Of a stretch of 64,000 bases of DNA, positions 46,980 to 53,617 are shown one piece after another (position 1 is the first letter of the stretch; every line of letters begins with the position of its first letter). The notes under the pieces were generated by a model. That model had not been told where the DNA came from, ran no database searches, and saw only the letters and a list, made by a program, of their open reading frames with translations. Made by a program: the position numbers and the translations under genes. The stretch comes from Catellatospora paridis (lineage in GTDB: Bacteria; Actinomycetota; Actinomycetes; Mycobacteriales; Micromonosporaceae): NCBI RefSeq assembly GCF_009720365.1, contig NZ_WBZD01000037.1:62001-126000 (forward strand), given 5' to 3'.

Positions 46980-49900
46980 ATGGGAACGGTGATCGTCAAG
47001 CGGGCGCCCCGGCGGCCCGCGCCGGAGATCCCGGCCGGGGAGCTCGTCATCGACGCGCCGCCGGAGATTCCGCAGGCCGCGGGCGGGCGGTGGCAGCAGG
47101 CCATGATGATCCTGCCGATGCTGGGCAGCGGCCTGGGCATGGCGATGATGGTCGGCCGCGGCAACGGCGACAAGATGTCCTATGTGGCCGGCGGCATGAT
47201 GGGCGTGTCCAGCCTCGGCATGATCGCCGCGAGCCTGATGAACGGCGCCGGCCAGCCGAAGAAGGCCGAGATGATGGCGGCGCGCCGGGAATACCTGCGC
47301 CACCTGGCGGGCCTGCGCCGCCGGGCTCGCCAAGCCGTCCAGCAGCAACGTACGGGCCTGTTCTACCGCCACCCCGACCCGCAGCGGCTGTGGTCCACGG
47401 TGGACAGTTTCCGGCTCTGGGAGCGCCGCCCGCACGACCCCGACTTCGGCATCGTGCGCGTGGGCCTCGGCCCGCAGTCGCTGGCCACCCCGCTGCTGCC
47501 GCCGGAGACCCGCCCGCTCGAGGAGCTGGAGCCGATGACGGCGGGGGCGCTGCGGCGCTTCCTCGACGCCTACTCCGTCGTCCCCGACCTGCCCGTGGCG
47601 CTGTCCCTGCGCGGCTTCGGCCGGGTGTTCCTGCGCGGCGACAGCGCCGCCCCGCGCCACGACGGCATGTACACCACCGGTTTCGCCGCCGACCACCGCG
47701 ACGGCGGCGACGTGCACGGCCTGGCCCGCGCGATGCTCGCGCAGCTGGCGGTGTTCCACGCGCCCGACGACCTGATCATCGCGATCTGCGGCTCGTCCTA
47801 CCGCCGCGAGGCGTGGGACTGGGCCAAGTGGCTGCCCCACCACCAGCACCCGAGCAAGGTCGACGCGCTGGGCCCGGCCCGGCTGTTCGCCACCTCCGCC
47901 CAGGAGATGGAGGGCCTGCTCGCCGAGGTGCTCGCGGGCCGGCCGCGCTTCGGCGCCGGCGAGGGCGCGCCGCACGTGGTAATCGTGCTCGACGGCGCGG
48001 ACATGGCCGGGGCTGGGCCGCTGGCCGTGCCCGAGGGCCTGTCCGGCATGACGATCCTGGACCTGGACTCCCCACCGCCGCGGCTGCTGGAGCGCGGCAT
48101 GCTGACCCTGGAGGTGCGCGGCCGGGAGCGGGCGCTGCACACCGTCACCTCCGCCTCGGTCGCCGAGGTCGGCGTCGCCGACCGGCTCAGCGTGGTGGAG
48201 GCCGAGGCGCTGGCCCGCCGGCTCGCCCCGTTGCGGCTGTCCGCCACGACCATCACCAGCAGCAACGCGATGACGTCCGAGAAGGGACTGGCCGACCTGC
48301 TCGGCATCCCCGACCCGGAGCGCTTCGACGTGGCGTACGGCTGGTCCCCGCGCGCGAACCGCAACATGCTGCGGGTGCCGCTGGGCGTCGGGCCGGACGG
48401 CTCACCGGTCGAGCTGGACATCAAGGAGTCGGCGCAGGACGGCATGGGCCCGCACGGCCTGCTCGTCGGCGCGACCGGCTCCGGCAAGTCGGAGCTGCTG
48501 CGCACGCTGGTGCTCGGCCTGGCCGCCACGCACTCCTCCGAGCAGCTCAACTTCGTGCTGGTCGACTTCAAGGGCGGCGCGACGTTCGCCTCGCTGGACC
48601 GGCTGCCGCACACCTCCGCGGTCATCACCAACCTGGAGGGCGAGAGCCACCTGGTCAACCGCATGGGCGACGCGATCACCGGCGAGGTGCTGCGCCGCCA
48701 GGAGCTGCTGCGGGCCGCGGGCAACTTCGCCAACCTCAAGGACTACGAGAAGGCGCGTACCGGCGGCGCGGCGCTGGCCCCGCTGGCCTCGCTGTTCATC
48801 GTCTGCGACGAGTTCTCCGAGCTGCTGACCGCCAACCCCGACTTCATCGACATCTTCGTCCAGATCGGCCGGGTCGGCCGGTCCATCGGCATCCACCTGC
48901 TGCTGGCCAGCCAGCGCCTGGAGGAGGGCCGCCTGCGCGGGCTGGACACCCACCTGTCGTACCGGATCGGCCTGCGCACCTTCTCCGCGATGGAGTCGCG
49001 CGCGGTGCTCGGCGTCGGCGACGCGTACGACCTGCCCAAGGCACCCGGCCACGGCTACCTGAAGTTCGGCTCGGAGCCGCTGCAGCGGTTCAAGGGCGCG
49101 TACGTGTCCGGCTCGTTCAAGAAGGCCGGCGAGACCGCCGCCGCCCGCCGGGTCGACGGCCGTGACCTGGTCTACGACTTCGGCAACCACTTCGTGCCGG
49201 TGCCGCAGCGCCCGGCCAACGCCGAGCCCGAGGTCAACTGGGACGTCAAGCCGGGCGAGAGCCTGATGGACGTCATGATCGAGCGCATGGTGGGCCAGGG
49301 CCCGCCCGCGCACCAGGTGTGGCTGCCGCCGCTGGACGTCTCCGAGCCGCTCGACCTCGCCTTCGGGCAGCTCGGCCTGGTCGAGGGGCGGGGCCTGACG
49401 GTGGCCAACCCGGATCTGCGCGGCGCGCTGCGGGTGCCGGTCGCCGTCGTCGACAAGCCCGCGCAGCAGCTGCGCGACCTGCAGTGGCTGCGGCTGGCCG
49501 ACGGCGCGGCGGGCCACGTCGCGATCGTCGGCGGTGGTCAGAGCGGCAAGTCCACCCTGCTGCGCACGCTGATCACCGGCCTGGCGCTGACGCACACGCC
49601 GCAGGAGGCGCAGATCTACTGCCTCGACTTCGGCGGCGGCTCGCTCGGCGCGCTGCGCGAACTGCCGCACGTCGGCGGCGTGGCCGGACGGCAGGACGCG
49701 CTGATGGTCCGGCGCACCGTCAGCGAGGTCGCGCAGCTGCTCAACATGCGTGAGACCCGCTTCGCCGAGCAGGGCATCGAGTCCATGGCGGCGTACCGGC
49801 GGCTGCGCGCGGCGGGGCGGTTCACCGACGACCCGTACGGCGACGTGTTCCTGGTCGTGGACGGCTGGAGCACGCTGAAGGAGAGCTACGAGGACCTGGA

Positions 49901-50975
49901 CCCGGTCATCACTGACTTCGCGACCCGCGGTCTGGCCTACGGCGTGCACGTCGTGGCGACCTCGCTGCGCTGGCGCGACTTCCGGGCCAACATCCAGGAC
50001 CAGTTCGGCAGCAAGCTCGAACTGCGCCTGGGCGACCCGAGCGACACCATCTGCCGGGTCCGCAAGATCGCGCCGCAGGTGCCGTCGCGCCCCGGTTTCG
50101 GCCTCACCCCCGACGGGCTGTTCTCGCTCGCGCTGCGGCCGGACGTGGACGCCGTCGGCCACCGCGACGACCTGATCCAGCACATCGCCAAGCACTGGGA
50201 CGGCATGCCCGCGCCGCGGGTGCGCATGCTGCCCAACGTGTACGCGTACGAGCGAATGCCCCTGGAGACCGGCGGCGAGTGGACGCTGCCGATCGGCCTC
50301 GCCGACGACCTCACCCCGGCGACCGTCGACTTCTACGCCGACGTGCACCTGACCGCGTTCGGGGAGAGCGAGAGCGGCAAGTCGACGCTGCTGCGCCAGA
50401 TCGCCCGGACGATCACCCAGCGGTACACCCCCGACCAGGCCAAGATGATCATCATCGACCCGCGGCGCAGCCTGCTCGGGGCGGTGACCACCGAACACCA
50501 GCTCGCCTACATCAGCAACCTGTCCCAGATCCGCGACTACGTCGAGGCGATCCGGGTCCGGATGGAGGAGCGGCGGCCGCCCGACGGCACCCGCCCGCAG
50601 GACATGCCGCTGCGGCCCTGGCTGGCCGGGCGCGGCGAGTTCTTCCTCATCGTCGACGACTACGACGTGGTCGTCTCCGGCGGCAGCCACCCGATCGAGC
50701 CGCTGGCGGACTTCCTCTTCCAGGCGCGCGACGTCGGCCTGCACCTGATCGCGGCCGCCGGCGCCAACTGGGGCGGCAACCGGTCGAGCTACGACACGGC
50801 GCTGTCGCGGCTCGCCGCCGCCAACGCGCCGTACCTGATGCTTTCCGCCGAGAACATCGTGACCGCGCCGTTCGGCAGCCGGATGAAGTACGACCGGATG
50901 CCGCCCGGCCGGGGCCGCCTCATCACCCGCCGCGGCTCGCGCCTGGTGCAGCTCGCCGAGCTGCCCGCGTTCTGA
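46980..50975 (+). CDS. eccC: Type VII secretion ATPase EccC (fused Ca/Cb)
   Basis: A 1331-residue FtsK/SpoIIIE-type ATPase that drives type VII secretion. Two membrane segments lie near residues 45-80. Three P-loop domains follow: GATGSGKS at 497-504 with an intact Walker B (FIVCDEFSELL), GGGQSGKS at 851-858 with a Walker B lacking the catalytic acid (FLVVDGWS), and GESESGKS at 1128-1135 with FLIVDDYD. As known for EccC, the first domain is probably the main active one and the last binds substrates. EccCa and EccCb are fused here. It is convergent with ppa across a strong terminator. Confidence 0.95.
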   Translation: MGTVIVKRAPRRPAPEIPAGELVIDAPPEIPQAAGGRWQQAMMILPMLGSGLGMAMMVGRGNGDKMSYVAGGMMGVSSLGMIAASLMNGAGQPKKAEMMAARREYLRHLAGLRRRARQAVQQQRTGLFYRHPDPQRLWSTVDSFRLWERRPHDPDFGIVRVGLGPQSLATPLLPPETRPLEELEPMTAGALRRFLDAYSVVPDLPVALSLRGFGRVFLRGDSAAPRHDGMYTTGFAADHRDGGDVHGLARAMLAQLAVFHAPDDLIIAICGSSYRREAWDWAKWLPHHQHPSKVDALGPARLFATSAQEMEGLLAEVLAGRPRFGAGEGAPHVVIVLDGADMAGAGPLAVPEGLSGMTILDLDSPPPRLLERGMLTLEVRGRERALHTVTSASVAEVGVADRLSVVEAEALARRLAPLRLSATTITSSNAMTSEKGLADLLGIPDPERFDVAYGWSPRANRNMLRVPLGVGPDGSPVELDIKESAQDGMGPHGLLVGATGSGKSELLRTLVLGLAATHSSEQLNFVLVDFKGGATFASLDRLPHTSAVITNLEGESHLVNRMGDAITGEVLRRQELLRAAGNFANLKDYEKARTGGAALAPLASLFIVCDEFSELLTANPDFIDIFVQIGRVGRSIGIHLLLASQRLEEGRLRGLDTHLSYRIGLRTFSAMESRAVLGVGDAYDLPKAPGHGYLKFGSEPLQRFKGAYVSGSFKKAGETAAARRVDGRDLVYDFGNHFVPVPQRPANAEPEVNWDVKPGESLMDVMIERMVGQGPPAHQVWLPPLDVSEPLDLAFGQLGLVEGRGLTVANPDLRGALRVPVAVVDKPAQQLRDLQWLRLADGAAGHVAIVGGGQSGKSTLLRTLITGLALTHTPQEAQIYCLDFGGGSLGALRELPHVGGVAGRQDALMVRRTVSEVAQLLNMRETRFAEQGIESMAAYRRLRAAGRFTDDPYGDVFLVVDGWSTLKESYEDLDPVITDFATRGLAYGVHVVATSLRWRDFRANIQDQFGSKLELRLGDPSDTICRVRKIAPQVPSRPGFGLTPDGLFSLALRPDVDAVGHRDDLIQHIAKHWDGMPAPRVRMLPNVYAYERMPLETGGEWTLPIGLADDLTPATVDFYADVHLTAFGESESGKSTLLRQIARTITQRYTPDQAKMIIIDPRRSLLGAVTTEHQLAYISNLSQIRDYVEAIRVRMEERRPPDGTRPQDMPLRPWLAGRGEFFLIVDDYDVVVSGGSHPIEPLADFLFQARDVGLHLIAAAGANWGGNRSSYDTALSRLAAANAPYLMLSAENIVTAPFGSRMKYDRMPPGRGRLITRRGSRLVQLAELPAF

Positions 50976-51048: not shown

Positions 51049-51540
51049 TCAGTGGCCGCCGTCCTCCTTGGCGCGCGCGTAGGAGCGCACGATCTCCGCC
51101 TCGGCCTCGGTGCGGCCGACCCAGGTCGCGCCCTCGACGCTCTTGCCGGGTTCGAGGTCCTTGTAGACCTCGAAGAAGTGCTGGATCTCCAGCCGGTCGA
51201 ACTCGGCGACGTGATGGATGTCACGCAGGTGCTCCAGGCGCGGGTCGTCGGCCGGCACGCAGAGGACCTTGTCGTCGCCGCCCTTCTCGTCACGCATGCG
51301 GAACATGCCGATGGCACGGCACTTGATCAGGCAACCGGGGAACGTCGGCTCCTGGACCAGCACCAGCGCGTCGAGCGGGTCGCCGTCCTCGCCCAGGGTG
51401 TTCTCGATGAACCCGTAGTCCGCGGGGTACTGGGTGGAGGTGAAAAGGGTGCGATCCAGCCGGATCCGCCCGGTCTTGTGGTCGACCTCGTACTTGTTGC
51501 GCTGCCCCTTAGGGATCTCAACCGTGACGTCGAAATCCAT
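51049..51540 (-). CDS. ppa: Inorganic pyrophosphatase
   Basis: A 163-residue soluble family I pyrophosphatase that hydrolyses pyrophosphate to phosphate, pulling biosynthetic reactions forward. The metal-site motif [13 protein letters not shown] and the [15 protein letters not shown] and [11 protein letters not shown] segments are intact. It is the counterpart of Rv3628. The ATG at 51540 begins the usual [12 protein letters not shown]. It is divergent from the dacB-like gene; a TTCGCC-gacgtt-GGCGAA palindrome (51565-51582) lies about 25 bases upstream. Confidence 0.96.
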
Positions 51541-51631: not shown

Positions 51632-53617
51632 TTGGGGAGGCAAGGTTCACACTACGGGGCCGAACCCGGAGATGCCGCGGGTTCGCCGTCCGGCCCGCCG
51701 GGCGAGTGGGTGTGGAACGGCCAGGAGTGGGTCTGGCAGCTCCACAGCGGTTATCCACAGGCCCCGGACCAGGGGCGCAGTGGGTATCCACCGGCTTATC
51801 CACAGGACACGGCCCCGCGACCGGGTGTTTATCCACAGGATGTGCACAGCTCTCCCCAGGATCGCCAGCCCCACGGCGGCAATCCACAGGTCTACGGCAC
51901 CCCGCAGGGTCACGCCTCACCCGGCTACGGCTCGGCCCAGGCCCCGCAGGGCCAGTACGGCTCCGCCCAGGTCCCGCAGGGCCAGGCGTCGCCCGGCTAC
52001 GGCGCGCCCCAGGCGCCCCAGGGCCAGTACGGCTCGGCCCAGGTCCAGCAAGGACCCGGGGCCGCGTCCGGGTTCGGCGCGCCGCCCGCTGGCCAGAGTG
52101 CGCAGCCCCGCCCCGCTGAGTACGGCCGCCCGGCCGAGCCCTCGCCCGCCGGTGCCAAGGCCGGCAAGCCCCGCAAGCGCCGCAAGGGCGTGCTCGTCAC
52201 CGTGCTGGCGCTGGTGGTCGCGCTCGGCGCGGGCCTCGGCGGGGTCGCCGTGTTCAAGCCGGACCTGATGTCGAGCCTGCTGGCCGCGCCCGACTGGCAG
52301 TCGCCCAGCGCGGCTCCACCCGCGGAGCCCGCGGCCGCGCCGGTGCTGGCCGCGCTGACCGGTGCCCCGGTGCCGGACGCCGCGCTGCTCAAGCAGGTGC
52401 TCGACCCGCTGATCGCCGGTTCGCCGCTGGGCAGCAAAGTCAGCGCCTCGGTGGTCGACGTCGGTACGGGCGAGGTCCTCTACGAGCGCACCCCCACCGC
52501 GATGATCACTCCGGCGTCGAACACCAAGCTGGTGACGGCGGCGGCCGTGCTCACCACCCGGGGTCCCGACTACCGGATCACCACCCGCGTGGTGGCCGGG
52601 CCGAACCCGGGCGAGGTCGTCCTGATCGGCGCGGGCGACGCCACGCTCGGCGTGACCGCGAAGAAGTTCTACGAGGGCGCGGCCCAGCTCGACGACCTGG
52701 CGGCGCAGGTCAAGAAGGCGATGGGGACCACCCCGATCACCAAGGTGAGCACCGACGGAAGCCTGTTCACCGGGCCTGTCACGTCGCCCGACTGGCCGGC
52801 GGACACCCTGAGCGAGGGCACCGTCTCCCGGATCACCGCGTTGATGATCAACGGTACGCGTTCCAACCTCAAGCAGCAGGTGATGCCGTTCACGTGGTAC
52901 AGCGATCCCGAGCGCGCCGCCGGCGACGCCTTCGCCAAGCTGCTCGGGCTGACCGTCAGCGCCAAGGGCCAGGCGCCCGCGACGGCGTCCACCGGCTCGG
53001 CAGCCCCGTCTCCACAGGGCAGCGCGGCCGCGGCCGGACCTCCGGCGCCCGGCACGGAATTGGGCTCGGTGCGTTCGGCGCCGCTGCTGCGCCAGGTCGA
53101 GCAGATGCTGACCGAGAGCGACAACACGCTGGCCGAGGCGCTGGCGCGCCAGGTGGCGCTGGCCAAGGGCCAGCCCGCCTCGTTCGCTGGGGCTGTCACC
53201 GCGATGGAGCAGGTGGTGACCGAGCTCGGGCTCGACGCGACGCAGAGCGACCTGCTGGACGGGTCCGGCATGTCGCCCAAGAACAAGATCTCGCCGAAGG
53301 TGCTGACCGACCTGCTGGTCAAGTCCGCGGGCGGCACCGACTCGCACCTGTCCGACTTCTTCAACGGCCTGCCGGTGGCCGGCTGGTCGGGCACGATGGG
53401 CGCGCGCTTCGCCAAGTCGAAGGCGGGATTCGGTGTGGTGCGGGCCAAGAGCGGCACCCTCAACGGCGTCAACGCGCTGGCCGGTGTCGTGCAGACCGCC
53501 GACGGGCGACTGCTGGCCTTCGCGGTGCTGGCCGACGATGTCCCGGTAGACCGGGATCCCGCCCAGAACGCGCTCGACAAGATCGCCGCGGCGATCGCGG
53601 TGTGCGGCTGCCGCTGA
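51632..53617 (+). CDS. dacB: D-alanyl-D-alanine carboxypeptidase/endopeptidase (PBP4 type)
   Basis: A 661-residue peptidoglycan hydrolase of the S13 (PBP4) family. The N-terminal 180 residues are cytoplasmic, Gln/Pro/Tyr/Gly-rich with GYPQ-type repeats, followed by an anchor (about 187-210) and an external catalytic domain with SNTK (S296, K299), SDN (496-498) and KSGT (606-609), all intact. It trims or opens stem-peptide cross-links. It is the counterpart of Rv3627c. The TTG at 51632 has GGAGGAGGG about 5 bases upstream. The 5' coding part contains three perfect DnaA boxes. Confidence 0.93.
   Translation: MGRQGSHYGAEPGDAAGSPSGPPGEWVWNGQEWVWQLHSGYPQAPDQGRSGYPPAYPQDTAPRPGVYPQDVHSSPQDRQPHGGNPQVYGTPQGHASPGYGSAQAPQGQYGSAQVPQGQASPGYGAPQAPQGQYGSAQVQQGPGAASGFGAPPAGQSAQPRPAEYGRPAEPSPAGAKAGKPRKRRKGVLVTVLALVVALGAGLGGVAVFKPDLMSSLLAAPDWQSPSAAPPAEPAAAPVLAALTGAPVPDAALLKQVLDPLIAGSPLGSKVSASVVDVGTGEVLYERTPTAMITPASNTKLVTAAAVLTTRGPDYRITTRVVAGPNPGEVVLIGAGDATLGVTAKKFYEGAAQLDDLAAQVKKAMGTTPITKVSTDGSLFTGPVTSPDWPADTLSEGTVSRITALMINGTRSNLKQQVMPFTWYSDPERAAGDAFAKLLGLTVSAKGQAPATASTGSAAPSPQGSAAAAGPPAPGTELGSVRSAPLLRQVEQMLTESDNTLAEALARQVALAKGQPASFAGAVTAMEQVVTELGLDATQSDLLDGSGMSPKNKISPKVLTDLLVKSAGGTDSHLSDFFNGLPVAGWSGTMGARFAKSKAGFGVVRAKSGTLNGVNALAGVVQTADGRLLAFAVLADDVPVDRDPAQNALDKIAAAIAVCGCR
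51751..51837 (+). promoter_or_regulatory. Cluster of three perfect DnaA boxes inside dacB
   Basis: TTATCCACA occurs at 51751-51759, 51796-51804 and 51829-51837, all in the same orientation and frame, 45 and 33 bases apart. Weaker relatives lie beside them (GTATCCACC at 51784, CAATCCACA near 51880, and CTCCACAG near 51740 in another frame). Each perfect box spells part of TAT-CCA-CAG (Tyr-Pro-Gln), while other Tyr and Pro codons nearby are mostly TAC and CCG/CCC. The boxes may bind DnaA; no origin genes (dnaA, dnaN) are near. Confidence 0.6.

Follow-up and report, generated by a model that had tools for sequence, protein, structure and literature searches.

The clusters of DnaA boxes in Streptomyces are said to act by holding DnaA. 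According to reviews (PMC5742627, PMC4585315), clusters located near oriC repress untimely initiation of replication in both Bacillus subtilis and Streptomyces coelicolor. The eight regions readily detected in vivo in B. subtilis, which are the strongest ones, are listed as lying outside genes; for rplB, an internal site that is strong in vitro is reported as not bound in vivo, for which the authors suspect transcription (PMC4447404). Escherichia coli DnaA is described as favouring paired boxes with a gap of 2 or 3 bp, an example being purH, where a 7/9 box stands 3 bp ahead of a perfect box (PMC11317965). In the same organism, the datA site is reported to be regulated by transcription across it (PMC10950094), and the density of DnaA boxes peaks near oriC, over base composition, which has been argued to favour titration (Olivi et al. 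2025, PMC12371093).

The cluster of DnaA boxes within the dacB gene of Catellatospora paridis is a real and conserved element of a known kind, an oriC-near DnaA-box cluster, in a new setting, in frame inside a coding sequence. As described for S. coelicolor (Smulczyk-Krawczyszyn et al. 2006) and B. subtilis (Okumura et al. 2012), it has few, putatively high-affinity boxes and is placed outside oriC in the oriC half; it differs from the Streptomyces and Bacillus clusters in having its boxes inside protein-coding sequence. The box itself also differs, with the E. coli-type TTATCCACA in dacB and TTGTCCACA given as the high-affinity box of S. coelicolor (PMC4285127). Like E. coli datA, the dacB cluster is a group of boxes at a kept distance from oriC, whereas datA is non-coding and works with IHF; the few boxes in a fixed arrangement outside oriC also resemble E. 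coli DARS1 and DARS2, which are described as non-coding (PMC12371093), in contrast to the coding dacB cluster. Literature searches yielded no prior description of the dacB cluster, the publication matching dacB together with DnaA box dealing with MtrA and a different gene, dacB1, and nothing on Catellatospora together with DnaA.

The window, i.e. the whole 64-kb stretch of DNA analysed (positions 62001-126000 of contig C17 in a genome of 8.97 Mb), contains TTATCCACA three times, all on the plus strand and within 87 bp (51751-51837), and a scan of both strands of the window revealed no further one-mismatch copies. The three boxes start 119, 164 and 197 bases into dacB, towards the 5′ end of the open reading frame, and each is read in frame as Tyr-Pro-Gln (Table 1). 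The start context of the gene (GGGGAGGCA.GG.TCACA.TA) was kept in 14 aligned relatives, so the boxes are located in coding sequence. DacB is laid out as a low-complexity tail of about 180 residues, a predicted-looking membrane segment (judged by eye) and the catalytic part; the dacB relatives with 88-93% identity among the named genomes (four loci) were all from Catellatospora. The ppa-dacB intergenic stretch is without any DnaA box. To the left of ppa, a large ORF (window 46980-50975) shows three ATP-binding-like motifs and resembles, by eye, EccC of type VII secretion. The first-pass annotation had described three perfect boxes of one orientation, in frame within the 5′ coding region of dacB, with weaker relatives alongside, and this description was confirmed, the weaker relatives being GTATCCACC, ATGTGCACA and CAATCCACA. 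Its statement that the rest of the gene avoids the codons of the boxes held for TAT, as all four TAT codons of dacB fall in the cluster (three in the boxes and one in the weak box at 51784) vs 11 TAC codons elsewhere in the gene, but did not hold for CCA, with only four of the seven CCA codons in the cluster.

Table 1. Features of the dacB region, in positions of the window
Feature	Positions	Strand	Remark
ppa, inorganic pyrophosphatase	51049..51540	-	divergent from dacB, adjoining
dacB, D-Ala-D-Ala carboxypeptidase	51632..53617	+	Peptidase_S13 match; TTG start behind GGAGG
DnaA box 1, TTATCCACA	51751..51759	+	encodes Gly-Tyr-Pro-Gln; invariant in 13/13 aligned genomes (three genera); present in L047
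Weak DnaA box GTATCCACC	51784..51792	+	7/9 to TTRTCCACA; 3 bp ahead of box 2
DnaA box 2, TTATCCACA	51796..51804	+	invariant in 13/13 aligned genomes
DnaA box 3, TTATCCACA	51829..51837	+	invariant in 13/13 aligned genomes; inverted boxes instead in L047
Weak DnaA box ATGTGCACA	51840..51848	+	7/9 to TTRTCCACA; 2 bp past box 3; out of frame with YPQ repeat
Degenerate box CAATCCACA	51880..51888	+	7/9; place varies in alignment

Loci of dacB were read in 73 genomes from 39 genera of the Micromonosporaceae, and a cluster was called where at least two perfect boxes lay within 110 bp. Clusters were found at 18 of the 73 loci and in six of the 39 genera: in all 11 genomes of Catellatospora (g1), in the single genomes of g42, g17, g19 and g10, and in three of four from g39, whose fourth locus (L127) has just 184 bp upstream and is uninformative. 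No dacB cluster was seen in 33 of the 39 genera, and 55 of the 73 loci had none, three of these with a single distant box; upstream DNA was short at four of the 73 loci (L042, L079, L094 and L127), and a ppa-like start was recognised with a simple pattern in 58 of the 73, so that orthology is not established for every negative locus. Given the 33 genera that lack it at dacB, the cluster is not essential across the family. No sign of an actinobacterium-wide element at dacB was seen, none of 28 loci from other families (28 of 114 matched outside-family genomes) holding a perfect TTRTCCACA. In a tree of the catalytic part of DacB (29 chosen rows, eight with a cluster), g1, g42, g17 and g19 formed one clade (100/100) and g10 and g39 another (99/97). 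The distribution of the cluster on this tree needs two changes, and may reflect either one origin with losses or two origins.

The first-pass annotation had considered chance copies of the box improbable in this DNA. Genome-wide, 30 copies of TTATCCACA were counted in 8.97 Mb, in comparison with six for the reversed pattern used as control. Under random placement of those 30 copies, the expected number of cases with three starts inside 78 bp is about 9e-7, a simple estimate that ignores repeat expansion. Pairs of TTATCCACA 4-34 bp apart occurred 54 times in 14 genomes of the cluster-bearing clade and never with the reversed control. Triplets of perfect boxes separated by 24-38 and 20-28 bp were found in 20 of 354 genomes of the family (control, 0), and in 16 of these 20 the array was located at dacB (11 Catellatospora, G009, G017, G042, G080 and G039), whereas in four (G014, G097, G115 and G147) it lay outside this gene. 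The cluster is conserved beyond what chance and base composition would give.

The cluster contains two double DnaA boxes, i.e. pairs in one orientation separated by 3 bp (51784/51796) or 2 bp (51829/51840), whereas box 1 is without a 2- or 3-bp partner. With three perfect boxes in 87 bp and two 7/9 partners, it has the make-up of a high-affinity-type cluster. The layout of the 51784/51796 pair is that of the E. coli purH pair, the pair-spacing rule being borrowed from another species. At all 18 cluster loci, a weak box matching 7 or 8 of 9 positions stood at the GTATCCACC-type place ahead of at least one perfect box, and a 7/9 box was present at the ATGTGCACA place in 13 of 13 genomes of g1, g42 and g17. 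When the 56 perfect forward boxes of the 18 cluster loci were scanned for same-orientation partners of at least 7/9, these were found at offset −12 (3-bp gap) for 38% of the boxes and at +11 (2-bp gap) for 25%, vs a mean of 0.4% over offsets within 30 bp, ±11 and ±12 excluded. The −12 partner was present in six of six genera and the +11 partner in four of the six (g1, g42, g17 and g19); L047 has a perfect TTGTCCACA 2 bp past box 2. Repetition of the peptide cannot produce the +11 partner, which does not share the frame of the YPQ unit. Among close same-strand distances within the oriC-like region of this genome, the most frequent include 11 (four cases), 12 (three) and 21 (four). Of a further 26 perfect boxes in those stretches of the genome that were read, four had a partner at 11 or 12 bp, vs 12 partners summed over 56 other offsets, and the double-box geometry is therefore not general.

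The proposal of selection on the DNA in addition to the Tyr-Pro-Gln peptide was supported by the alignment of dacB orthologues, in which the boxes stayed while the residues between them drifted. Across the 11 genomes of Catellatospora, letters were invariant at 27 of 27 places in the boxes vs 28 of 60 in the spacers (p 3e-7, to be taken as a guide because of kinship), and at third codon positions the values were 9 of 9 in boxes and 8 of 20 in spacers (p 0.003, likewise a guide only for related sequences). Addition of g42 and g17 left the box letters invariant (27/27), vs 13 of 60 for spacers. The spacing of 45 and 33 bp was kept in 13 of the 14 genomes of the clade formed by g1, g42, g17 and g19, and no indels were found between the boxes of aligned relatives, whereas the tail behind them is full of indels. 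Other spacings were 33/33/15 in g10 and 33/33 in two g39 genomes (G080 and G039). In the fourteenth genome of the clade (L047), the 45-bp spacing is kept and followed 11 bp on by TTGTCCACA and then by two inverted copies of TTATCCACA; the inversion of boxes 3 and 4 alters the peptide to LVHTQPTGPVDNSAPVDN, with PVDN in place of YPQ, and the DnaA boxes stay.

Codon use was examined over all YPQ units, whatever their codons, of 16 cluster loci. TAT encoded 59 of 61 YPQ tyrosines vs 15 of 118 other tyrosines in the same tails, and 13 of these 15 belonged to the Tyr-Pro of near boxes. The box is preceded by any of several residues (G, A, V, T, S, P, R, L or D), and the codon ahead of YPQ nevertheless ended in T in 52 of 61 cases, vs 230 of 1766 fourfold third positions outside boxes. 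Counts restricted to perfect boxes (51 of 51 in-box tyrosines encoded by TAT, and a T ahead of the in-box YPQ in 51 of 51 cases) were dropped as circular, since they follow from the way in which boxes are picked. No orthologue was found to have kept YPQ while losing its boxes through synonymous codons; the nearest case is the partly eroded locus of G061 (L126), in which YPQ is kept with TAT-CCA-CAR codons together with two perfect and five one-mismatch boxes on that strand. Altogether, these patterns make selection on the DNA of the cluster very probable. Selection on the peptide may contribute too, boxes and peptide both being kept in most genomes. Synonymous codons can remove the boxes with the protein unchanged, which offers a clean test of a role of the DNA.

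The single DnaA_C match of the genome is on contig C12 of this assembly, and the dacB cluster on C17. In the six relatives with both on one contig, dnaA and the cluster were 202-251 kb apart (G071, 238 kb; G129, 233 kb; G118, 214 kb; G017, 245 kb; G009, 251 kb; G080, 202 kb), which places the cluster near oriC by way of these six genomes. In 12 genomes without a dacB cluster, the distance from dacB to dnaA ranged from 226 kb to 1.67 Mb, and in five of them it was 226-271 kb; nearness alone therefore does not bring boxes. An oriC-like region with 25 boxes of at least 7/9 in 510 bp was found on C12, between the dnaA ORF and a dnaN-like ORF. An origin inside dacB was rejected, since the oriC-like region, with its dnaA/dnaN neighbourhood, sits on C12.

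Boxes crowd towards oriC in the cluster-bearing relatives G129 and G071, as they do in E. coli (Olivi et al. 2025). The zone reaching up to 700 kb from dnaA held 25 of the 30 copies of TTATCCACA in G129 (4.7 expected) and 18 of 22 in G071 (3.6 expected), in comparison with 12 of 27 and 11 of 26, respectively, for TTGTCCACA; these counts include the boxes of oriC and the dnaA promoter, clustered boxes are not independent, and the main contig of G129 was treated as a circle. The copies of TTATCCACA were co-oriented with the replication fork in 25 of 30 cases in G129 and 16 of 22 in G071 (p 0.05), and box groups within 700 kb ran along the fork direction in 17 of 20 and 15 of 19 cases, whereas the bias by group over the whole genome was not significant (25/39 and 24/37). 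A lagging-strand preference of boxes is reported for E. coli, under a convention that may differ from the fork-direction bias given here (Olivi et al. 2025, PMC12371093). That study describes hundreds of scattered motifs in E. coli, in contrast to the approximately 30 perfect copies found here, many of them in conserved clusters. Pairs of TTRTCCACA were present in all 12 other or clusterless genomes of the family that were searched (102 rows; one control match); clusters near oriC are therefore customary in the family, with dacB as one of their sites.

Arrays also occur in other genes. In three of the four genomes with a triple box outside dacB, the boxes are again in frame with YPQ, in genes named by eye: an RDD-like gene in G115 (L167; five perfect boxes, with a dnaA ORF about 283 kb away where the contig begins), a large gene in G014 (L168; five perfect boxes, about 186 kb from dnaA) and the same large gene in G147 (L169; six perfect boxes). 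The fourth genome, G097, holds 13 copies of TTATCCACA in both orientations within about 290 bp (contig C40, L170:2179-2459), possibly its origin. In the C. paridis genome, a second YPQ-rich frame (C27:49905-50414; L012:3723-5111) with 12 YPQ and three perfect boxes gave no match in a Pfam scan, and its relatives in G129, G071 and G118 keep a box pair spaced by 33-36 bp, at a distance of 470-525 kb from dnaA. This gene was set aside as weaker, on account of its mixed codons and of boxes without 2- or 3-bp partners.

Further box groups were observed in the same genome. A 40-bp element with two copies of TTATCCACA 31 bp apart and a weak box between them (C12:63903-63942; L006:1904-1943) sits between ORFs that look by eye like gyrA and gyrB, and a near-identical element was found 8-10 kb from dnaA in eight of 12 other genomes of the family. 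Three perfect boxes lie just upstream of a dnaB-like ORF (by eye; C12:125562-125638; L008:5563-5639), also in G129 and G071. Four perfect boxes in the order −,+,+,− with the mirror spacing 32/13/32 (C18:30639-30724; L011:3640-3725) are likewise present in G129 (3551045-3551130).

Conservation of box letters, spacing and double-box geometry, together with closeness to oriC in relatives, characterizes the dacB cluster. From its sequence, the segment 51751-51848 is on balance best read as an oriC-proximal DnaA-binding cluster carried by the codons for the disordered tail at the N terminus of DacB, and probably titrating DnaA. Binding of DnaA to the cluster appears likely, with good confidence, and negative control of initiation through titration is the somewhat favoured main role. 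DnaA would bind as dimers on both double boxes (51784-51804 and 51829-51848), and the cluster would be one of several oriC-proximal reservoirs. The fork would reach it soon after initiation, doubling it along with the other clusters near oriC, and the extra high-affinity boxes would draw DnaA off oriC and so delay a second start. Its place in the transcribed dacB gene implies that the site may be emptied by transcription, as suspected for rplB in B. subtilis; by analogy with the transcription of datA, location in a gene may subject a site to regulation instead of silencing it, and dacB transcription might act likewise.

That the repeat unit expanded under selection on Tyr-Pro-Gln, or under none, leaving the boxes as a by-product, was the trivial alternative named in the first-pass annotation. 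The units do encode Tyr-Pro-Gln, 33 bp make 11 codons, and the YPQ-rich gene on C27 shows mixed codons, including TAT without boxes. Expansion nevertheless fails to explain the invariance of the boxes, weak boxes at exactly 3 and 2 bp, one of them out of frame, or the inversion in L047, and neither the TAT bias nor the T at the end of varied codons ahead of the boxes fits with it, which makes it very improbable. A similarly faint prospect, and the least probable, is that the motif is read by another protein organising the origin region. The fork-direction bias of box groups near oriC would suit such a protein, but over the whole genome that bias by group is not significant, and TTATCCACA fills the dnaA promoter region of this genome, with weaker forms in its dnaN-dnaA intergenic region.

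Two further readings keep DnaA as the binding protein and give it another task. As a transcription factor, DnaA bound 119-217 bp into the gene would block or tune RNA polymerase on dacB, linking the state of replication to a cell-wall enzyme. DnaA is described as a transcription regulator (PMC11317965), transcription of dacB itself runs over the boxes, and in each of the six genera it is the 5′ portion of dacB that holds the cluster; on the other hand, the intergenic stretch between ppa and dacB lacks boxes, most relatives have dacB without them, and in-frame arrays in unrelated genes of other genera point to the oriC neighbourhood rather than to dacB, so we regard this reading as unlikely. 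We give an equally low probability to a nucleotide-switch site that, like E. coli datA or DARS, would speed ATP hydrolysis or ADP release on DnaA and not just hold the protein. In E. coli, datA stimulates hydrolysis of DnaA-ATP with an IHF site between its boxes, and DARS promotes the release of ADP from DnaA, at DARS2 with IHF and Fis. A small fixed arrangement of few boxes at constant spacing is more than pure titration would need, although the arrangement differs in g10, g39 and g19, which argues against one strict complex. A bolder extension of the titration reading is that the codons of Tyr-Pro-Gln-rich disordered tails of Micromonosporaceae recurrently carry oriC-proximal DnaA reservoirs, and that RNA polymerase can clear the dacB array, so that dacB transcription would set the amount of free DnaA and tie cell-wall growth to replication starts. 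It is suggested by the in-frame arrays in dacB of six genera and in the genes of G115 and of G014 and G147, and we advance it only tentatively, as doubtful.

Replication-control sites are usually sought and described in non-coding DNA, and the dacB cluster indicates that reading frames can conceal sites of this kind and that the need for DNA binding can shape a disordered protein tail. It also brings the oriC-near DnaA-box reservoirs reported for Streptomyces and Bacillus into a second actinomycete family with large genomes. Because three perfect boxes are kept at fixed spacing in related bacteria, the DNA itself, and not just the protein that it encodes, is probably used to control the timing of chromosome copying.
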